Under the pieces are notes generated by a model. That model was not told where the DNA came from. It saw nothing but the letters and a program-made list of their open reading frames with translations, and searched no databases. The translations under genes and the position numbers were made by a program. From NCBI GenBank assembly GCA_937896195.1, contig CALBNC010000018.1:1-37999 (forward strand): a stretch of 37,999 nucleotides of DNA. Direction: 5' to 3'. This DNA comes from an uncultured Gammaproteobacteria bacterium (GTDB lineage: Bacteria > Pseudomonadota > Gammaproteobacteria > PS1 > Pseudothioglobaceae). Of the stretch, positions 327 to 31,362 are shown piece by piece. The number at the start of each line of letters is the position of its first letter. Position 1 is the first letter of the stretch.

Positions 327-659
327 CTAAGATTTGCTTGGCGCATGTCCTTCTTCAGGTGGCTCATAGCTTGGATCATTTGGATTCATAAAGACAAAGC
401 TATAATCCTGGTCAGCTTCGATTTGATCAAAGTCAACCACCATCCCTTCTAGTAATTCTTTTTGCTCGTAAGCCAAAATATACTCAACACCATTTGATTC
501 TAGGTGAATATCACTATCATTGCGATCATCAAAACCCATTAAATACTGGAAACCTTCATCGGTTTTATCAGCAGCAAAGCGGATAACTAATCCTTGCGTT
601 TCTGGATTATGAGTGGAAAGTGATATTTCTTCTGCTGCTTTTTTTGTAATTGTGATCAT
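327..659 (-). CDS. dsrR: DsrR, A-type iron-sulfur carrier-like protein
   Basis: This is a 110-residue cytoplasmic protein of the IscA/HesB fold, starting MITITKKAAEEI. It contains no cysteine at all, so it lacks the three Cys that A-type carriers use to hold Fe-S clusters. That matches what is known of DsrR from Allochromatium, which shares the fold, lacks the cysteines and affects dsr expression after transcription. Its ATG overlaps the dsrN stop by four bases (ATGA, 656-659), so translation is probably coupled. It is the last gene of the cluster here. The 180 bases beyond it hold no gene, no clear terminator and no dsrS. Confidence 0.9.
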   Translation of the reverse strand: MITITKKAAEEISLSTHNPETQGLVIRFAADKTDEGFQYLMGFDDRNDSDIHLESNGVEYILAYEQKELLEGMVVDFDQIEADQDYSFVFMNPNDPSYEPPEEGHAPSKS

Positions 660-8823: not shown

Positions 8824-9168
8824 CTAGATACAGCCAGTTGGCTTTGGAAGACCCGCAAACTTACAACCTTGCTTACCTGGACCATAAGGAAATAAAGTGT
8901 AAAGGTACTTAGAGTTACCTTTGTCTTTACCAAGTTTCTTGCCAACTGCTTTAGTCAACACACGAACAGCTGGTGCAATTTGATACTCTTCAAAATAATC
9001 ACGTAAAAGATTAAGGACTTCCCAACGTTCTGAATATAATTCAGCTTCTTCGTTTTCTAAGTCAATTTCATCAGACTTTCCCATTTCAATTGCAATCTCT
9101 CTTGTCCAATCTTTAAGATTTACCAAGAAACCCTCTTCATCTACATCAGCGCCACAAATTTGTGCCAT
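8824..9168 (-). CDS. dsrC: DsrC, sulfur-carrier protein partner of DsrAB
   Basis: This 114-residue protein has the DsrC/TusE fold and the flexible C-terminal arm with both conserved cysteines, Cys102 (CysB) and Cys113 (CysA, penultimate residue in PKPTGCI), eleven residues apart. With both present it can form the intramolecular disulfide and the trisulfide that link DsrEFH, DsrAB and DsrMK. The insertion after residue 77 (GKKLGKDKGNSKYLY) is typical of true DsrC rather than TusE. It follows dsrH after 26 bases and is followed by a hairpin at 8775-8806. A second, shorter family member lies at 31015-31305. Confidence 0.96.
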   Translation of the reverse strand: MAQICGADVDEEGFLVNLKDWTREIAIEMGKSDEIDLENEEAELYSERWEVLNLLRDYFEEYQIAPAVRVLTKAVGKKLGKDKGNSKYLYTLFPYGPGKQGCKFAGLPKPTGCI

Positions 9169-9505: not shown

Positions 9506-9910
9506 TTAGAAACTCAAGCAAACGTCTTGTTCAGACATGATTGCTGTAAGTTCATCATTAGTAACAATTTTGATAGAAGGTTTTTCTGCCCAATCATCAT
9601 CTTCATCTTCATAAACTAAAGGCATAAGATCAGACTCAGTTAAGCCTCTTTCTTCTAAAGATTCTTTAGAAACATAAAGCTTATTGATATCGTAATCACC
9701 TAGCGCGTGAAAAGTCTTAGAAAAGTTTTTCATGCCAATGCCATCAGAATTTTGGCCTTCAACGATTTGATATACACCATCATCCATAAAAGCCAAAGAT
9801 ACATCTTGTTCAAAAGCAGCAGCAATTAACACTACTTCTAATGATTCAATTGCATACACCGTACCAAATGAAGATCGGCGATTTAAATACATAAATTTCT
9901 TTGTAGCCAT
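9506..9910 (-). CDS. dsrF: DsrF, subunit of the DsrE2F2H2 sulfur-transfer hexamer
   Basis: The 134-residue protein starts at the ATG at 9910 (MATKKFMYLNRRSSFGT), with GGAG six bases upstream. An in-frame TTG at 9922 would add four residues but lacks a ribosome-binding site. The sequence matches the DsrF/TusC family. The catalytic cysteine of DsrE is not expected in this subunit, and the only cysteine is near the C-terminus. One base separates the dsrE stop from this ATG. It forms the hexamer with DsrE and DsrH in the cytoplasm. Confidence 0.93.
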   Translation of the reverse strand: MATKKFMYLNRRSSFGTVYAIESLEVVLIAAAFEQDVSLAFMDDGVYQIVEGQNSDGIGMKNFSKTFHALGDYDINKLYVSKESLEERGLTESDLMPLVYEDEDDDWAEKPSIKIVTNDELTAIMSEQDVCLSF

Positions 9911-15843: not shown

Positions 15844-17973
15844 TTAGATTGATAAAGATAGTTCAGCTAATCTTTTTTGTCGATACTCTTTTAAAGTTGA
15901 TTCGGTATAACCATTTGGCTCACTCACACCTCTATAAACTAAAGATAGTGCTGCTTTAAATGCCATTCCATCATAGCTTGGCGCCATATTTTGATACAGT
16001 GGGTCATTCTCGTTTTGTGCATCCACAACGAGTGCCATCTCTTTAAACACTTGCTTTATTTGCTCCTTACTGCAAATCTCATGATGCAGCCAATTGGCCA
16101 TATGCTGGCTTGAGATCCTTAGCGTCGCCCTATCCTCCATTAACCCCACTTGATCAATGTCCATAACTTTTGAACAGCCTACACCTTGATCAATCCAACG
16201 CACAACATAGCCTAAGATACTTTGAGCATTGTTATTAAGCTCTGTCTTAATTTCAGCTGTACTTAATGTGCTAGTAGAGTTTAGTATCGGAGCAAGCAAT
16301 AAATCTTGTTCGTTGGCCTCAAGATGGGTTTGCATTAATTGTTGCTGTCTAGCGAAAACATCAAATCGATGGTAATGTGTCGCATGCAAGGTAGCAGCTG
16401 TTGGCGAAGGTACCCAGGCACAATTAGCACCCGCTTCTAAATGACTAACCTTACTCTCAAGCATTTCACGCATTTGATCAGGTTGTGCCCACATACCTTT
16501 ACCAATTTGTGCATTTTTATACATGCCACAATCCAAGCCTACTTGAACATTTAAGATTTCATAAGCTTTAATCCATGGCTGATTTTTGATTTTCGACTTA
16601 GGAAGTATTATTCCAGCTTGCATACTGGTGTGTATTTCATCGCCAGTGCGATCTAAAAAACCTGTATTAATAAAAATTACGCGTTTAGCTGCTGCTTTAA
16701 TACATGCTGCTAGATTAACACTTGTGCGGCGCTCTTCATCCATAATACCAATTTTAATTGTATTAGCCTTAAGTCCAAGAGCCTGCTCAACCCTCCCAAA
16801 CAGCTTAACACTAAACGCCACTTCATCAGGGCCATGCATTTTAGGTTTAACAATATAAACATTGCCCTTTTTTGAATTAGCACCTAAATGCTGAATATCA
16901 TGCAGAGCGATTAACGTTGTTATCAGTGCATCTAAAATACCTTCTGGTGCCTCTTGATTATCTGGAGTTTTAATTAAACCTGTTAACATATGGTGTCCGA
17001 CATTACGTACCAACATCAAACTACTTCCTGGCAAAGTACCGGACTTACCTTTTGCATTAATATAGCTTTTGTCTGAATTTACTCTTCTTACAACTGACTT
17101 CTCGCCCTTGTTAAATTTAATCTCTAAATCACGCTTCATTAGGCCTAAAAAGTTACGATAGGCGTTAATTTTTTCTTCACCAGCAACCGTAGCAACTGAA
17201 TCTTCAAAATCAATAATAGTTGTTAGTGCTGATTCCAAAATGACATCTTGAATACCTTTAGTATCTGTATTGATGACTAGTTCGATATGTAAATTATGGT
17301 GCTCAATTAAAATGCTATGATTGGTACTGCCAACAAAACTGTCTGAGTTTTTTAGCTGAGTTGTACTCTTATCCTTTAATGTAAATATTGGTACGTTTGA
17401 CTTAATATCAATAGAAGCAACTTGATCATAAGAGCCAGAATTTAGCGGTATTACCTCGTCTAAAAAAGTATTACTCCAACTAATAACTTGAGCAGCACGC
17501 TCATCGCCCTTAATTTTTCTATCGATAACGTCACTACCATACAAGGTGTCATACAAACTGCCCCAGCGTGCATTAAGTGCATTAAGTGCAAAACGAGCAC
17601 TGGAAATAGGCACCACTAATTGTGGTCCAGCTATTTTAGCAATCTCATCATCAACCTGATCTAGCTCAAGTTCGAAAGGAGCTGGTTTAGGTAATAAATA
17701 ACCAATATCTTCTAAGAATATTTTGTAAGCCTGTAAATCAAATGATCCAGTATTATTCTTATGCCACTTATCAATTTGGGATTGTAGTTTATCGCGCTGA
17801 AGCAGTAAATCTTGATTTTCCTTAGTTAACTCAGAAACAATAGTTAGTAATTTAGAGAAAAACTCATCCACCTTAATATCCAAACCTGGGAGAACTTCTT
17901 GCTCTATAAACTGATACAAGTTACGATCAACTTGGTAATCTGCTAAATTTTTATATCCTTCAACTAAAATCAT
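15844..17973 (-). CDS. glcB: Malate synthase G
   Basis: This 709-residue protein is about the usual length of isoform G (about 720 residues) and much longer than isoform A. It condenses glyoxylate with acetyl-CoA to malate, the second step of the glyoxylate bypass. Typical segments include DSVATVAGEEK, IGIMDEERRTSVNLAACI, FINTGFLDRTGDEIHTSM and GANCAWVPSPTAATLHATHYH. The start overlaps the stop of the preceding RraA-like gene by four bases (17970-17973), and it ends the aceA-aceK-rraA-glcB block. Isoform G in an ace operon, where enteric bacteria have aceB, is worth noting. Confidence 0.95.
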   Translation of the reverse strand: MILVEGYKNLADYQVDRNLYQFIEQEVLPGLDIKVDEFFSKLLTIVSELTKENQDLLLQRDKLQSQIDKWHKNNTGSFDLQAYKIFLEDIGYLLPKPAPFELELDQVDDEIAKIAGPQLVVPISSARFALNALNARWGSLYDTLYGSDVIDRKIKGDERAAQVISWSNTFLDEVIPLNSGSYDQVASIDIKSNVPIFTLKDKSTTQLKNSDSFVGSTNHSILIEHHNLHIELVINTDTKGIQDVILESALTTIIDFEDSVATVAGEEKINAYRNFLGLMKRDLEIKFNKGEKSVVRRVNSDKSYINAKGKSGTLPGSSLMLVRNVGHHMLTGLIKTPDNQEAPEGILDALITTLIALHDIQHLGANSKKGNVYIVKPKMHGPDEVAFSVKLFGRVEQALGLKANTIKIGIMDEERRTSVNLAACIKAAAKRVIFINTGFLDRTGDEIHTSMQAGIILPKSKIKNQPWIKAYEILNVQVGLDCGMYKNAQIGKGMWAQPDQMREMLESKVSHLEAGANCAWVPSPTAATLHATHYHRFDVFARQQQLMQTHLEANEQDLLLAPILNSTSTLSTAEIKTELNNNAQSILGYVVRWIDQGVGCSKVMDIDQVGLMEDRATLRISSQHMANWLHHEICSKEQIKQVFKEMALVVDAQNENDPLYQNMAPSYDGMAFKAALSLVYRGVSEPNGYTESTLKEYRQKRLAELSLSI

Positions 17974-18443
17974 ACTAACTCCTTCACAATAATAACGCCA
18001 TCTTGATCGGCATACAAATAATCCCCAGGGACAAAATTAACGCCAGAAAAGCTTAAATTAAGACTCTGCTCCCCAACGCCTTTCTTAATACTTTTTAATG
18101 GATGTGTGCCCAATGCACGAACCCCAATTGACATTTTATTAATCATCTCAGAATCTCTAATCAAGCCATAAATAATAATGCCAGACCAATTATTCTTAAC
18201 TGCTTTGGCAGCTAGCTGATCTCCCAACATGGCACAACGTCTTGAACCACCCGCATCTACTACTAAAACACCACCCTGGCCATCAGTATCAAGCACTTCT
18301 CTGACTAAAGAATTATCTTCAAAACACTTAATAGTGTGGATAACACCAGAAAAATCTATCTTGGCGCCATAACCATTATAAATAGGCTCCAAATACTGGA
18401 CATTAGGATGGAGTTGATCTGATATATCGCTAGTTTTTTGCAT
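17970..18443 (-). CDS. RraA / HMG-aldolase-like protein
   Basis: This 157-residue protein of the RraA/HMG-CHA aldolase fold is close in length to E. coli RraA (161). The family contains both regulators of RNase E and metal-dependent aldolases that also decarboxylate oxaloacetate. Enzymatic members carry the signature D-X20-R-D. Here Asp75 is followed by exactly 20 residues and then Arg96-Asp97, so the catalytic signature is complete, whereas E. coli RraA has R-Q. It lies five bases after aceK and overlaps glcB by four bases. That position between glyoxylate-bypass genes points to a metabolic role, though RNase E regulation cannot be excluded. Confidence 0.85.
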   Translation of the reverse strand: MQKTSDISDQLHPNVQYLEPIYNGYGAKIDFSGVIHTIKCFEDNSLVREVLDTDGQGGVLVVDAGGSRRCAMLGDQLAAKAVKNNWSGIIIYGLIRDSEMINKMSIGVRALGTHPLKSIKKGVGEQSLNLSFSGVNFVPGDYLYADQDGVIIVKELV

Positions 18444-18448
18444 ATAAG

Positions 18449-20194
18449 TTAGGTGGATTGTGAATAAATTTGGGACATCCTGAATTTTTGTCGGTATGGG
18501 TAATAATCAATAATCTTGCCATTTTGAATATTATCTTGTACAGATTTCCAATAATCAGCGCTTAGTAATTTTTCATAGGATTTGGCAAAAATTTGCTTAC
18601 TATCATTTTGACTAAACATGAATAGTTTAAACTCTTCTGGAAAAACATCTTCTGGGCCAACGTAATACCAAGGCTCAGCAGCCATTTCATCCTCTTCATG
18701 CCTTGCGTCTGGAATTTTTCTGAATACAGGTTTATCCATGGTGGTGATTTCATCATAATCATAAAATACAACACGATTTTGGCGAGTAACACCGAAATTT
18801 TTAGTGAGCATATCACCTGGAAAAATATCTGCATTAATCAATTCATCAATTGCTCGTCCATAATCATTAACAATATGCTTAAGGTCTTCTTTATTAGCAT
18901 TTTGGATATATAAATTAAGCGGAATCATTTTATTTTCCATATACAAATGCTTAATAATAAGTAAGTCACCCTCAATGGTGATATTTGACCCAACCTTTAA
19001 TTTTAACTCATTGAGTAGATCTTCATCCAAATCACGAATCGGAAAGGCGACATTTGAAAACTCCCATGTGTCTGCTAAGCGTCCAACTTTACAATGATTT
19101 TTAACAAAGAAATATTTATCTTTAACCTGTTGTTTGGTTGCAGTTTTAGGTGGAGCAAAATTATCATTAATTACTTTAAAAACATAAGGGAACATCGGAA
19201 AAGTAAAGACAGTCATAACCATGCCTTTAATGCCAGGAGCAAGAATAAGTTTTTCGCCAGTACTACGTGAATACTTTAAAAAACGACGATATAGCAAAGT
19301 TTTTCCGTGCTTATGTAGTCCAATTGAGCTGTATAGCTCAGCTTTAGTTTTACCAGGAAGAATTGCTTTTAAGAAATCTACGATCGCTGCAGGATAATCA
19401 GTATCAATAAAAAAGTATGCCCTAGAAAAGCTAAACACTATAGATATATTGGCAACATCAGTCAGCAATATATCTACATATATTCCTGTTTTTTCATCAT
19501 TTAACAGAGCTATCAAAACAGGGCGAACTTGATTATTTTTTAATACAACCTGTCCGACGATATAGCCAGCTTTTCTTCTAAAAAAAGTACTTTTAACTAA
19601 TTGCAATTCAAACTCTTCATCTTCCGATAAATTTAATTGTTTAATAAATTGCATTTTTAGACGCGATATATCACGATCTAAATTTTGATAGGGCGTGTCA
19701 AAGTCTAGCTTTAAAAAAATCGCTTGCAGTGTTTGCTCTAATTGATGAGTTTTAATATAATGACTAACAATAATTGGGTCATCCATATCAATAAAAGTAG
19801 TTGATATAGATGGCTTAACAAAAATAAAATTATTATTATAAAAACGCTTATCAAACAATAAACAAAAAACTGAGTTATAGAACGTTTCAGCTAATTCTGG
19901 CTGATTATAATTTGACGTTAAACTAATATAAGCAAGCTTGGTATTTATCCAAACTTCCTCATCAAACATATCTGTATTTATCTCTTTTTTAAGCTCAAGA
20001 CAGAATTGTTTAACTTGCTGATCATAAAAATAAAGGCGCGCCTTATAATCATCTAGTAATTGCTGCCATTCGCAGTGATCAAATCTAGATTTAGCTTGCA
20101 CAGAGGCTTGTTGAAAAACACGATAGTGCCTCTCAAAACCTTCCAATATTTTCTTGGAAGTTGCTTCAGAAAGATTGCTTGATTGCGTACTCAT
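18449..20194 (-). CDS. aceK: Isocitrate dehydrogenase kinase/phosphatase
   Basis: This protein of about 581 residues starts at the ATG at 20194 (MSTQSSNLSEATSKKILEGF), chosen over an in-frame TTG two codons upstream. It matches AceK over its full length: the N-terminal regulatory half, then a kinase-like catalytic half with GIKGMVMTVFTFP, a basic ATP-binding region and GVTRQNRVVFYDYDEI. It phosphorylates and dephosphorylates isocitrate dehydrogenase to direct carbon between the TCA cycle and the glyoxylate bypass. A strong hairpin (20214-20248) lies between aceA and aceK and would lower its expression relative to aceA. Confidence 0.96.
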   Translation of the reverse strand: MSTQSSNLSEATSKKILEGFERHYRVFQQASVQAKSRFDHCEWQQLLDDYKARLYFYDQQVKQFCLELKKEINTDMFDEEVWINTKLAYISLTSNYNQPELAETFYNSVFCLLFDKRFYNNNFIFVKPSISTTFIDMDDPIIVSHYIKTHQLEQTLQAIFLKLDFDTPYQNLDRDISRLKMQFIKQLNLSEDEEFELQLVKSTFFRRKAGYIVGQVVLKNNQVRPVLIALLNDEKTGIYVDILLTDVANISIVFSFSRAYFFIDTDYPAAIVDFLKAILPGKTKAELYSSIGLHKHGKTLLYRRFLKYSRSTGEKLILAPGIKGMVMTVFTFPMFPYVFKVINDNFAPPKTATKQQVKDKYFFVKNHCKVGRLADTWEFSNVAFPIRDLDEDLLNELKLKVGSNITIEGDLLIIKHLYMENKMIPLNLYIQNANKEDLKHIVNDYGRAIDELINADIFPGDMLTKNFGVTRQNRVVFYDYDEITTMDKPVFRKIPDARHEEDEMAAEPWYYVGPEDVFPEEFKLFMFSQNDSKQIFAKSYEKLLSADYWKSVQDNIQNGKIIDYYPYRQKFRMSQIYSQST

Positions 20195-20213
20195 TTCCAA
20201 TATATTACCCCAT

Positions 20214-20248
20214 AAAAAAGCTGATTTATATTATTATATAAATCAGCT
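20214..20248 (-). terminator. Hairpin terminator between aceA and aceK
   Basis: A perfect 13-bp stem (20219-20231 with 20236-20248) and a 4-base loop are followed on the minus strand by six Us. The structure follows the aceA stop by 25 bases and precedes the aceK start. It probably stops most transcripts after aceA and lets a fraction continue into aceK-rraA-glcB. Confidence 0.88.
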
Positions 20249-20273
20249 AATTTTATAAAAAAAATATCAAGAC

Positions 20274-21578
20274 TTAGAACTGCTCTTCTTCAGTTGAACC
20301 CGTTAGTGCAGTTACTGATGATTTACCACCCTGAATAACAGTTGTTACATCATCAAAATAACCTGCGCCTACTTCTTGTTGGTGAGCTACGAATGTGTAA
20401 CCTTTCTTGGCTGCTTCAAATTCTGGCTCTTGAACTTTATTTACGTAATGCTTCATGCCTTCGCCTTGTGCATATTCATAAGCTAAATCAAACATGTTGT
20501 ACCACATGTTGTGAATACCAGCTAATGTAATAAATTGATACTTATAACCCATTGCAGCAATATCTTCTTGGAATGAAGCAATTTGAGAATCACTTAAGTT
20601 TTTCTTCCAATTGAATGAAGGTGAACAGTTGTATGCCAATAATTGATTTGGATTTTCAGCTAATACCGCTTCTGCAAATTCTCTTGCAAAGCCTAAATCT
20701 GGTTTGCCGGTTTCACACCAAACAAGATCTGCGTAAGGCGCATAAGAAACACCACGTGAAATGGCTTGCTCTAGTCCATTTTTCACTTCGTAAAAACCTT
20801 CTGGAGTTCTTTTACCAGTTATGAATGGCGCATCAATTGGATCTACGTCTGACGTTATTAACGTCGCTGCTTCTGCATCAGTACGCGCAAGAAGCAATGT
20901 TGGAACACCCATCACATCAGATGCTAGTCGTGCAGCATTTAATTTTTGTATTGCATCTTGAGTTGGTACTAAAACTTTACCACCCATATGGCCACATTTT
21001 TTAACAGCCGCTAATTGATCTTCAAAATGCACACCTGCTGCACCTGTAACAATCATATTCTTCATTAATTCGTAAGCATTCAACACGCCGCCGAAACCCG
21101 CTTCTGCATCTGCAACAATTGGCAGGAAATGATCGATATAACCTTTATCACCAGGATTTATGCCTTTAGCATACTGAATTTCATCTGCGCGTTTAAAGGT
21201 GTTGTTAATTCTACGAACCATAGTTGGGACAGAGTCATAAGCATATAAAGACTGGTCCGGATACATTGTTTCTGATGTATTACCATCAGCAGCTACTTGC
21301 CAGCCTGATAAATAAATAGCCTCAATACCTGCTTTAGCTTGTTGCATAGCTTGTCCGGCAGTAATAGCACCCATACAGTTGACATAGCCTTTTTTAGAAC
21401 TACCATTTATTAATTCCCATAATTTATCAGCACCATCTTTAGCATGTGTGTATTCAATTTGCTTAGATCCACGAAGTCGAACAACGTCTTCAGCACTATA
21501 ACTACGCTTTACATCTTTCCACCGTGGATTTTCAGCCCATTCTTTTTCCAATGCTTTAATTTGATCTTGTCTGCTCAT
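20274..21578 (-). CDS. aceA: Isocitrate lyase
   Basis: This 434-residue protein has the same length as E. coli AceA and the catalytic signature KKCGHMGGK at 193-201 with Cys195. Metal and substrate segments such as [10 protein letters not shown] and [12 protein letters not shown] are also present. It splits isocitrate into glyoxylate and succinate, the first step of the glyoxylate bypass. It is divergent from the IclR-family gene across a 195-base AT-rich region with repeated operator-like sequences, so repression by that protein is likely. Confidence 0.97.
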
Positions 21579-21652
21579 AGTATTTTCCTTTTATGGATTA
21601 TTAGTTAATTACTTTATTTAGTAAAAATAATGATACTGATTTTTTTTCTTCT

Positions 21653-21768
21653 ATTTCATTATATAATATGTTATTTCATAATATGAAATTATTAAAAATT
21701 TATTGTTTATATTTCGCTATATAAAATTTAATTTCATAATATAATGTAATTTTTTTATAATACGAAAA
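21653..21768. promoter_or_regulatory. Array of five IclR-operator-like repeats between aceA and the regulator
   Basis: Five 17-base copies related to ATTTCATAATATGAAAT start at 21653, 21673, 21711, 21731 and 21752. The copy at 21673-21689 is a perfect dyad (ATTTCATA-A-TATGAAAT); the others match it partly, the last at 13 of 17 positions. Spacings are 20, 38, 20 and 21 bases, close to whole DNA turns. The last copy ends five bases before the regulator ATG, suggesting autoregulation. Confidence 0.65.
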
Positions 21769-21773
21769 AAGTT

Positions 21774-22469
21774 ATGTTGTTAGAGTCCAAAAATCCAGGA
21801 AAGAAAGTGACTGCTATTGAGAAAAGTTTAATTATTCTGTCAATTTTTACAATGGAAAGACCCGCTTTGAGCCTTAAAGAAGTTTGCGATCAAGTTGGTT
21901 TTAACGCATCAACAACATATAGAATATTGCATACCTTGTCAGAATACGGATACATTATTAGAACAGCCGACAAAAACTATTGCATTGGAACAACACCTTT
22001 ATCTTTAAGCGCTATCTATCAAAAAACAAACCAATTAACTCAAATTAGCCCTATTGTTGATCATATTAGAGATATGTGTAATGAAACGGCATCCTTTTTT
22101 ATTCAACAAGATAATGAGAGAATTTGCTTATATCGTGCACATTCTCGTGATGAAATTAGGCACAATATTGATGTAGGAACCCAATTAGAGCTTAATCGTG
22201 GCGCTTCAGGTAGAGTAATTTTGGCTTTTGGTCAACGCTTACAAGACAAGAGTGGATATTTTAAGAATATCCGTGATAAGGGTTATTATTTGTCAGTAGA
22301 TGAGCACAATGCTGCTTTGTTTGCTGTAGCCAAACCTATTATGTCTGTTAGTGGGCATCTTATTGGCGCTCTGACAATATCTGGACCAATAAGTCGCTTC
22401 AATGAAGAAAGGATTCAGTACTTTTTAGACTTGCTAACAGAGCAAATTAAGACAGTAAAAATTCTTTAA
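21774..22469 (+). CDS. IclR-family transcriptional regulator of the glyoxylate genes
   Basis: This 231-residue protein begins with a winged helix-turn-helix (about residues 14-70: KSLIILSIFTMERPALSLKEV, then FNASTTYRILHTLSEYGYI). An IclR effector-binding domain follows, with typical segments FIQQDNERICLYRAH, LNRGASGRVILAF and AVAKPIMSVSGHLIGALTISGP. It is divergent from aceA, the position expected of a repressor of the glyoxylate operon. No good ribosome-binding site precedes the ATG; only AAAAAAGTT is seen. It could be named iclR, but the family is large, so I leave the symbol open. Confidence 0.9.
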   Translation: MLLESKNPGKKVTAIEKSLIILSIFTMERPALSLKEVCDQVGFNASTTYRILHTLSEYGYIIRTADKNYCIGTTPLSLSAIYQKTNQLTQISPIVDHIRDMCNETASFFIQQDNERICLYRAHSRDEIRHNIDVGTQLELNRGASGRVILAFGQRLQDKSGYFKNIRDKGYYLSVDEHNAALFAVAKPIMSVSGHLIGALTISGPISRFNEERIQYFLDLLTEQIKTVKIL

Positions 22470-28389: not shown

Positions 28390-28586
28390 TTGTAGTGGTC
28401 AACGGTAAAGAGCTGGAAATAAAAAGCTCAGCCACAGCTGAGTATTTAATCAGTCAACTAAACTATCAAGATCAACGCATTGCCCTGGAAATTAATGAAG
28501 CTATTATTCCTAAATCTAGGCACGCTGAGTTTGCACTAAGAGAAAATGATAAGATTGAGATTATTAAAGCAGTCGGTGGCGGTTAA
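28386..28586 (+). CDS. thiS: ThiS-family sulfur carrier protein
   Basis: This 66-residue ubiquitin-like protein has the ThiS pattern (MIVVVNGKELEIKSSATA, then LEINEAIIPKSRHAEF and LRENDKIEIIKAVGGG) and ends in glycines, where the last Gly becomes a thiocarboxylate. In thiamine synthesis it gives sulfur to ThiG, but no thiG, thiF or thiE is in the window. It is translationally coupled to the HMA gene and converges, with a four-base overlap of the stops, on an ATP-pyrophosphatase gene of the tRNA-thiolation type. It may therefore serve thiamine synthesis in trans or another sulfur transfer. Confidence 0.85.
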   Translation: MIVVVNGKELEIKSSATAEYLISQLNYQDQRIALEINEAIIPKSRHAEFALRENDKIEIIKAVGGG

Positions 28587-29632
28587 ACAAACCACTCTTT
28601 AGGAATTTCATCTATACCTAGAGGCTTTACGCTAAATTGTTGAGCCACACCAACATTCAACTTCACTTCAATATCAACACTTGGTTGCTCTCGATCTTGT
28701 GAATATCGCGCTAAAATTCGAGCAGCAATTTTAAGATCTTCTTGATTTGGCTCACCATCAATCAATGCAATTGGACCCTTGCAGCTAGTTGAATAAAGAT
28801 TGGCATATTGATTTCTATAGCCTTCAAGAAATTTCACCTCACCCTCTTCTCTGGCAACAATCATTTTAAAACGTTGATTGGGGCGAATATGGCGGCCCAC
28901 TTTAAGCATCATTAAATCATCTAATTGATAATCACGATTACCGCGAGATTGCCACATATCAACTAACTTATCAGAATATTGCTTGTCTGTTAAGAAGCAA
29001 CAACCACCTGCAGGCGTTGCGTAATCCTCAAAACCATAGGATTTTGCCAAAGCTATTTGCGGCTTTCGCGTACGCCCAGTAAAATCAAGTAACTTTTCTC
29101 GATCTATCCACCCTTCTTTTTCTGGCTTGGTTTCAGGCAAATGTTTAGCGCACAATGGACGCAATAACAAGTCATTCGCACCTGATTCTGCTTGCACAAC
29201 TGGCATAGTGTCTTTACGCTGAGACATTGGACGTTGCCCCATAACCTCACCAGTAATAATAAAGTCAAACTCGTTTTCTTCCATCCATTGCTTAGCTTTT
29301 TTAACCATAAAACCTTTACAATCTAAACAAGGGTTCATGTTTTTGCCATAGCCATGCTTTGGATTTAAAAGTACATCGCGATATTCTTCGATTACATCAA
29401 TAATATGCAATTTAATACCTAATTGCTCCGCCACCCAAAGTGCGTTATTACGTTTTGGCTTATCACTTTTTTGCTTACGAATAGCGTGGGTATGGCCTTC
29501 TACACAAAATCCAGTAAAAAAATTAATTCCTTCAACATGAATACCTTGGTCAAGTAGTAGTTTAGTGCTTAATAGAGAGTCTAATCCACCTGAAATTAGA
29601 GATACTGCTTTAATTTGTTTTTTATTTGTCAT
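28583..29632 (-). CDS. ATP-pyrophosphatase/tRNA-thiolation-like protein with C-terminal NFACT-like domain
   Basis: This 349-residue protein has an N-terminal PP-loop (SGGLDS at 14-19), the ATP-pyrophosphatase motif of MnmA, ThiI and related tRNA-thiolating enzymes. A cysteine pair (NPCLDC, Cys102 and Cys105) is at a place similar to the catalytic cysteine region of MnmA, and a Cys-Cys pair is at 211-212. The C-terminal third (VGRHIRPNQRFKMIVAREE, then AARILARYSQ) resembles the NFACT-R type RNA-associated domain. It probably activates a tRNA base for sulfur insertion, but the target is unknown. It follows prmA after seven bases and is distinct from full-length MnmA and ThiI. Confidence 0.78.
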   Translation of the reverse strand: MTNKKQIKAVSLISGGLDSLLSTKLLLDQGIHVEGINFFTGFCVEGHTHAIRKQKSDKPKRNNALWVAEQLGIKLHIIDVIEEYRDVLLNPKHGYGKNMNPCLDCKGFMVKKAKQWMEENEFDFIITGEVMGQRPMSQRKDTMPVVQAESGANDLLLRPLCAKHLPETKPEKEGWIDREKLLDFTGRTRKPQIALAKSYGFEDYATPAGGCCFLTDKQYSDKLVDMWQSRGNRDYQLDDLMMLKVGRHIRPNQRFKMIVAREEGEVKFLEGYRNQYANLYSTSCKGPIALIDGEPNQEDLKIAARILARYSQDREQPSVDIEVKLNVGVAQQFSVKPLGIDEIPKEWFV

Positions 29633-30688: not shown

Positions 30689-30856
30689 ATGGCTAACGGT
30701 ACTACAAAAGGCAACAGACCACCTCTAGGAAGTAGCTTAGACGCATTAAATGCATCTAACCCTTCAAACACAAGAACGGGCAAAGAAACAACAACAACTA
30801 CCCAAGATTACAAAAAAGGCATGAAGTCTGCAGAAGAGTTAGACGATCTTAGATAG
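30689..30856 (+). CDS. Unrecognised 55-residue protein
   Basis: This short gene has an extended -10 promoter (30630-30638), AGGAG six bases before the ATG and a strong terminator 26 bases after the stop, which together make it a convincing independent gene. The product (starting MANGTTKGNRPPLGSSLDAL) is hydrophilic and rich in Thr, Asn, Ser and Lys, with a TTTTT run at 34-38 and an acidic end (AEELDDLR). It has no cysteine, membrane segment or signal peptide, and most of it looks disordered. I recognise no family. Its neighbour is a separately transcribed DsrC-family gene, which does not by itself assign a function. Confidence 0.75.
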   Translation: MANGTTKGNRPPLGSSLDALNASNPSNTRTGKETTTTTQDYKKGMKSAEELDDLR

Positions 30857-30882: not shown

Positions 30883-30906
30883 AAAACCCTCGTAAGAGGG
30901 TTTTTT
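30883..30906 (+). terminator. Rho-independent terminator after the 55-residue gene
   Basis: A perfect 9-bp stem (AAAACCCTC/GAGGGTTTT) with a GTAA loop ends in Ts. Its right arm and tail (GAGGGTTTTTTATTG) are identical to those of the terminator after the next gene. Confidence 0.92.
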
Positions 30907-30958: not shown

Positions 30959-30974
30959 ATTGACTTAAGTCAAT
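30959..30974. promoter_or_regulatory. FNR/CRP-type palindrome before the DsrC-like gene
   Basis: ATTGACTTAAGTCAAT is a perfect 16-base palindrome. It contains TTGAC-N4-GTCAA, which follows the CRP/FNR-family pattern TTGAT-N4-ATCAA with one change per half-site. It lies just upstream of the TATAAT at 30979-30984, close enough to overlap a -35 region, which favours repression or a nonstandard activation geometry. Confidence 0.55.
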
Positions 30975-30978
30975 CTTA

Positions 30979-30984
30979 TATAAT
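30979..30984 (+). promoter_or_regulatory. -10 box of the DsrC-like gene
   Basis: A perfect TATAAT lies 30 bases before the ATG. The nearest TTGACT, at 30960-30965, is only 13 bases upstream, too close for a normal -35. Confidence 0.5.
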
Positions 30985-31014
30985 ATACCCAATTGAATTA
31001 CTAAGGTATTAAGG

Positions 31015-31305
31015 ATGGCATTAGAAAGAACAGGAAACGGCTACTTGGTTGATCCTTCAATTTGGACTGAAGAAATCATGCACGAAATGGCAACAGAGGA
31101 CGAAATAGAATTATCAGATTCTCAGGTGTCTCAAATTCTTGCTGCAAGAGATTATTTTTCTGAGAACTCGTCAGTACCGCCAATTAGAACATTTTCAAAA
31201 GTAGTTGGCATTGATAAAAAGATTCTTTTTAAAGAATGGCTAACTGGCCCTATGAAACCTATTACTAAATATGGTGGAATGCCTCAGCCAACAGGTTGTG
31301 TATAA
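31015..31305 (+). CDS. DsrC/TusE-family paralogue with a single C-terminal cysteine
   Basis: This 96-residue protein has the DsrC/TusE/RspA fold (NGYLVDPSIWTEEIMHEMA, then RDYFSENSSVPPIRTFSK) and the C-terminal arm ending in PQPTGCV with Cys95 in the penultimate place. The second cysteine of true DsrC is replaced by Thr84, eleven residues earlier, so no intramolecular disulfide can form. The insertion seen in the cluster DsrC is missing, so it is 18 residues shorter. A TusE-like sulfur relay to tRNA or a DsrC-like regulatory role are both possible. AAGG precedes the ATG, and the gene is bracketed by its own terminators. Confidence 0.9.
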   Translation: MALERTGNGYLVDPSIWTEEIMHEMATEDEIELSDSQVSQILAARDYFSENSSVPPIRTFSKVVGIDKKILFKEWLTGPMKPITKYGGMPQPTGCV

Positions 31306-31324
31306 AACAAAATCTGCTTAAAAT

Positions 31325-31350
31325 AAAAAACCCTCTTTCGAGGGTTTTTT
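31325..31350. terminator. Terminator between the DsrC-like gene and alaS
   Basis: An 11-bp stem (AAAAAACCCTC/GAGGGTTTTTT) with a TTTC loop has Ts on one side and As on the other, so it can end the DsrC-like gene on the plus strand and alaS on the minus strand. Confidence 0.9.
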
Positions 31351-31362
31351 ATTGCAAATTTT

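Follow-up and report, generated by a model that had tools for sequence, protein, structure and literature searches.

In Allochromatium vinosum, DsrEFH passes sulfur to DsrC (PMC3397948), and four further TusE/DsrC paralogues of this organism have no established role (PMC3368242). Genes designated 'dsrC' are also carried by many marine phages, and have been cited as evidence that sulfur oxidation is boosted by viruses in the waters of oxygen-minimum zones and vents. In Roux et al. (PMC4164917), CysB and a loop are reported as needed for DsrC function, and Kieft et al. (PMC8190135) give 112 of 141 phage DsrC proteins as having the second cysteine motif only and suggest a TusE role for the one-Cys phage forms. 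The passages of the two papers drawn on here name no host orthologue of the phage gene and contain no description of a host paralogue as its source. Moreover, no paper was found that joined tusE, dsrC, auxiliary metabolic gene and ribonucleotide reductase.

In the present study, a stretch of 37,999 nucleotides (the window) was analysed from a SUP05-type sulfur oxidiser with a genome of 1.42 Mb, the closest named relatives of which are Candidatus Thioglobus records. The following features of the window are needed below:

8824-9168, minus strand: true DsrC, encoded in the dsr cluster and with both cysteines (comparison protein)
9620-9898, minus strand: DsrF, the only TusC/DsrF found in a search of the genome
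29640-30542, minus strand: prmA, a divergent neighbour that is conserved across the family's genera (profile match, locus comparison)
30689-30856, plus strand: 55-aa ORF, MANGTTKGNRPP...TQDYKKGMKSAEELDDLR, upstream of short dsrC, genus-wide and in phages
30883-30904, plus strand: intrinsic terminator after the 55-aa ORF, ahead of the short dsrC promoter (terminator scan)
30959-30974, no strand: perfect palindrome ATTGACTTAAGTCAAT, FNR/DNR-type box with a TTGAC-N4-GTCAA core at 30960-30973 (sequence)
30979-30984, plus strand: likely -10 element TATAAT (comparison of 11 loci)
31015-31305, plus strand: short DsrC-like protein, 96 aa (translation, Pfam DsrC, TIGR03342, phrog_17249, tree, AF2 model)
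31322-31353, plus strand: intrinsic terminator downstream, towards the convergent alaS (terminator scan)

Elsewhere in the window (15844-22469), ORFs that on sequence recognition only resemble malate synthase G, an RraA-like protein, AceK, isocitrate lyase and an IclR-type regulator suggest a glyoxylate-shunt cluster.

The short DsrC ends in ...GPMKPITKYGGMPQPTGCV, in which the penultimate Cys95 is the sole conserved cysteine of the translated protein and is invariant across every host and phage short DsrC aligned. As originally predicted, Thr84 aligns with the CysB position of the cluster DsrC, which itself carries both cysteines. The protein thus lacks the pair of C-terminal cysteines of DsrC proper because Thr84 replaces CysB, it shares the single penultimate Cys of TusE, and the presence of Cys95 separates it from RspA, which has no C-terminal cysteines. 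Membership of the DsrC/TusE/DsvC superfamily was indicated by matches to Pfam DsrC (PF04358, 68 bits against a cut-off of 24.9) and TIGR03342 (56.1 bits against 53.5), and the PHROG match was phrog_17249 (E=5e-40). Furthermore, the alignment revealed that about eight residues are deleted after V64, in what is the GKKLGKDKGN region of DsrC; this deletion distinguishes the protein from DsrC and from E. coli TusE alike. The prediction that the DsrC insertion is missing was right as regards this deletion, but part of the difference is the cluster DsrC's own 7-aa insertion (about DLENEEA), which is missing from most DsrC of relatives. The AF2 model had a mean pLDDT of 90.4, a level reached by one of five models, and its best PDB match was DsrC 2v4j_C with a TM of 0.84.

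In a tree of 154 DsrC-family proteins, whose few columns, several long branches and unsettled bootstrap make the finer forks unreliable, a branch of 1.21 (support 100/99) split the short subfamily from DsrC, TusE and RspA, and short DsrC and TusE lay on opposite sides of that branch, long branches being present. This placement outside all three groups agrees with the predicted sulfur-carrier paralogue apart from ordinary TusE. The same conclusion is supported by the TusE equivalog model PRK11508, on which short DsrC scored 33.9 bits against a cut-off of 191 (the genome's true DsrC was also below it, at 100.5), and by the search of the genome for a separate tusBCD set, which found none and only DsrF as TusC/DsrF. 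That short DsrC is simply this lineage's ordinary TusE after fast divergence is therefore unlikely. CysA alone, Thr at CysB and the position of sole CysA-only paralogue in the genome speak for such an identity, but a separate, loop-deleted subfamily spread over many gammaproteobacterial families and some betaproteobacteria (with long-branch effects possible) and a model score so far under the cut-off speak against it.

Within the short subfamily, Thr or Ala stands at the CysB position, except in one sister clade that has Cys there and so carries both cysteines (CKWGGLPKPTGCV). Orthologues of short dsrC were found in many genera of the host family, but not in genus g3; further ones came from numerous other families of Gammaproteobacteria and from some records of Betaproteobacteria, including a MAG labelled Thiobacillus denitrificans. 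In genus g3 itself, a sister genus (L201-L203), no convincing dsrA or TusC/DsrF matches were found, and one two-cysteine DsrC is kept, which branches with the DsrC of the family. Among 369 sampled Gammaproteobacteria genomes, with the subfamily drawn at an 80-bit score gap chosen by eye, dsrA was present in 53 of 57 genomes with the short subfamily and in 64 of 312 without it (Fisher p=2e-26, phylogeny ignored). Short DsrC is thus a separate, mostly one-cysteine subfamily that is nearly confined to dsrA-positive organisms among the sampled Gammaproteobacteria.

The genome encodes four DsrC-family proteins: the cluster DsrC, the short DsrC, the CysB-only L002 and the stand-alone, cysteine-less homologue L003, which we take to be RspA-type. 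Only short DsrC has CysA alone. L002 (1495-1830, plus strand) ends in RRPRGWSTG and lies downstream of narJ- and narI-like ORFs, and CysB-only proteins like it form a clade in the tree. In this setting, the reading we prefer, with a confidence somewhat below even, is that short DsrC works like TusE as a one-cysteine persulfide carrier fed by DsrEFH and serving an acceptor other than DsrAB. Cys95, on a flexible C-terminal arm, would accept the persulfide from DsrEFH, the presumed donor since it is the sole TusBCD-like complex here, and would hand it directly to the acceptor, for which the tRNA thiolase MnmA is the most plausible candidate. Because CysB is missing, the DsrC trisulfide/disulfide could not form, and the loss of the loop means that docking on DsrAB probably does not occur. 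The invariant Cys95, the Thr shared with E. coli TusE at CysB, the position as only CysA-alone paralogue, the encoded MnmA (460 bits), the single TusC/DsrF, the co-occurrence with dsrA and the DsrC fold (TM 0.84) are consistent with this carrier, as are the published DsrEFH-to-DsrC transfer (PMC3397948) and the TusE role suggested for one-Cys phage forms (PMC8190135). However, in the tree the subfamily stands apart from the group of E. coli TusE, and TusE has not lost the loop. Moreover, MnmA is nearly universal and 64 dsrA-positive genomes lack the subfamily, so tRNA thiolation does not in general depend on short DsrC; the two-cysteine sister clade indicates that the subfamily is not bound to one-Cys chemistry; and the phage copies described below abut nrdA/nrdB and not sulfur-relay or tRNA genes.

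The near-confinement of the subfamily to dsrA-positive genomes would also suit a brake or decoy on sulfur flux, in which short DsrC competes with true DsrC for the persulfide of DsrEFH and keeps or redirects sulfur in a form closed to oxidation by DsrAB. Sulfur would then be turned from energy metabolism to biosynthesis, and phages would re-route the sulfur of their host. The protein misses exactly the CysB and the loop reported as necessary in DsrC (PMC4164917), its gene recurs in phages, and the promoter box is placed for repression at low oxygen. We nevertheless regard this role as doubtful, as about half of the sampled dsrA-positive genomes are without short DsrC.

A perfect 16-bp TTGAC-N4-GTCAA palindrome beside the -10 had been predicted and was found, its core ending five bases before TATAAT, which is invariant in the genus and the sister genus (11 loci compared); TATAAT has no entry in the promoter scan because no -35 hexamer lies at 16-18 nt. 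Transcription of short dsrC alone was likewise confirmed by the two flanking terminators, terminator-like sites numbering three where shuffles gave an expectation of 0.6. Genome-wide, TTGAYNNNNRTCAA occurred 54 times, against 7 for a reversed control pattern (eightfold), and even at the observed density about 0.002 matches per 60-bp promoter stretch are expected by chance. A second match in the window (423-436) lies within a coding ORF and is probably due to chance. In this genome, the box motif also lies ahead of the FNR-like gene, of a DNR/FtrB-like gene and of nirK, and both TTGAY-N4-RTCAA boxes and candidate regulator genes are present. The FNR-like gene product has an N-terminal cysteine motif, with FnrL, FixK and FNR as nearest models, all below cut-offs.

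Among ten same-genus loci, the box is exact at the same place with a varying N4 in six (window, L008, L013, L016, L017, L019), has one mismatch in one (L007) and is decayed in three (L009, L103, L104), which keep the same -10 all the same. It is exact in one sister-genus locus (L011). In other genera, a different conserved element, ATAAAAACCAAGTA..GGTA..TATAAT, replaces the box at the short dsrC promoter, and a comparison of orthologous promoters in other families found nothing comparable at this place. The palindrome thus appears to be a genuine FNR/DNR-type box, beyond chance, but a lineage-specific one: the predicted redox or nitrogen-oxide element stands as regards its type and its sharing with the FNR-like, DNR/FtrB-like and nirK promoters and its exact recurrence in near relatives, but does not extend to other genera or families and has been lost in some congeners. 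Measured from the transcription start that the -10 implies, the box is centred about 24 bp upstream, and the FNR-like gene has its own box in a very similar position. As the box overlaps the core promoter, repression would be predicted rather than activation, and in this genus transcription of short dsrC is probably blocked by an FNR/DNR-type protein under low oxygen or NO.

A regulatory role has been discussed for some DsrC-like proteins, and a stand-alone gene with an FNR-type box might suggest that short DsrC is itself a redox-responsive regulator, as the original prediction had allowed. This is very unlikely, however, because in the fold search DsrC-family structures reached E 4.6e-6 to 4e-4, whereas HTH regulators came up only with E near 1 and a TM of about 0.4, and because box and gene do not travel together. 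Nothing was found that indicates a regulator function for this DsrC fold.

The orthology to phage 'dsrC' and the 55-aa upstream ORF lie beyond what had been predicted. A search of IMG/VR with short DsrC found 44 contigs at 70-86% identity, and an alignment search found 84 viral relatives, the weakest among the best 80 of 84 being near 54% identity. The 'DsrC' of podophage Lau218 is 79% identical to the host protein. Like the phage dsrC_1/phrog_17249 proteins, short DsrC has lost CysB and the loop and clusters with phage sequences; host and phage short DsrC form one clade (100/99), with the phage rows in several places. On these sequence grounds, short DsrC is taken to be an orthologue of the phage 'dsrC' auxiliary gene. 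Its fixed place beside prmA across genera favours a host origin, the direction of transfer not being resolved by the support values. Viral contig L322 carries a two-cysteine DsrC besides short DsrC.

In 31 of 71 phage contigs, which are not independent, nrdA or nrdB lies immediately beside short dsrC (Pfam; Lau218 annotation), and in some short dsrC overlaps the nrdB stop; thyX, gp59 or gp32 is near it in others, and in the Lau218 annotation thyX and nrdB follow 'DsrC' within a few genes. A role in DNA-precursor supply, in which short DsrC would serve class I ribonucleotide reductase or the replication module as a redox or sulfur partner, would account for these neighbours. We consider it quite improbable, as the nrdA/nrdB neighbours are limited to about 5 of the 22 phage sequence clusters and no nrd neighbour was noticed in the host loci examined. 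The more specific possibility of a glutaredoxin substitute for phage RNR was rejected, since the C-terminal CxxC is retained in phage NrdA and several contigs encode a glutaredoxin nearby, which also counts against the broader role.

The 55-aa ORF, a candidate partner common to host and phage, lies between prmA and short dsrC. All 12 genomes of the genus have it, whereas a search of 133 other genomes found it in none; in the further genera of the family that entered the comparison, only a small gap separates prmA from a short dsrC arranged back to back with it. About 15 phage contigs carry a homologue immediately ahead of short dsrC, often with a 14-nt overlap with its start, and for each of six phage forms the similarity to the host form exceeded all 2000 shuffles. 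No Pfam, NCBIfam or PHROG match was found for the host ORF, and one phage form matched a PHROG at E=0.12 only. In the host, the terminator at 30883-30904 divides the ORF from short dsrC. Viral contig L358 (129-425, plus strand) carries a member of this ORF family without an adjoining short dsrC, so the pairing is not strict. No conserved neighbourhood was seen outside the host family in 14 loci under heuristic ORF calling. A link to the ThiI-like PP-loop ATPase (28583-29632) was rejected, as this gene is nearby in many genomes of the family only and also occurs without short dsrC.

The analysis thus shows the family, predicted fold and residues of short DsrC, its co-occurrence with dsrA, its orthology to the phage gene and the conservation of the box within the genus, while the transfer of persulfide, its donor and acceptor and the sign of the regulation are inferred. 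Taken together, these data suggest that phage 'dsrC' genes are not true DsrC and warrant re-examination. It is possible, with less confidence than we attach to the TusE-like carrier, that the 'dsrC' of SUP05 phages derives from the stand-alone host paralogue and not from the sulfur-oxidation DsrC, and forms with the 55-aa protein a two-gene unit in the host genus and several phage lineages. Through a carrier which DsrAB cannot oxidise, the phage would steer the sulfur relay or a linked nucleotide pathway and would not boost sulfur oxidation. If most phage 'dsrC' genes are orthologues of the one-cysteine host paralogue, the boost reading needs revision, and the host gene offers a testable reference for them.

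With regard to known systems, short DsrC resembles most closely the phage 'dsrC' (dsrC_1, Lauvirus lau218 DsrC, phrog_17249), which likewise lacks CysB and the 7-8 residue loop; the host copy, however, is chromosomal beside prmA/alaS with its own promoter, whereas phage copies are found in nucleotide/replication modules or follow the 55-aa ORF. E. coli TusE is of the same family and has the single penultimate Cys and the Thr at CysB, but it retains the loop, belongs to a separate clade and has TusBCD as donor, only DsrEFH being found in the host genome. The DsrC of the dsr cluster shares the family, the predicted fold and the C-terminal PTGC arm, but has two cysteines, the loop and a place in the dsr operon, with 43% identity over the aligned part. 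The RspA-type homologue L003 is also a stand-alone DsrC-family paralogue in the same genome, but it lacks C-terminal cysteines and falls in a separate clade.
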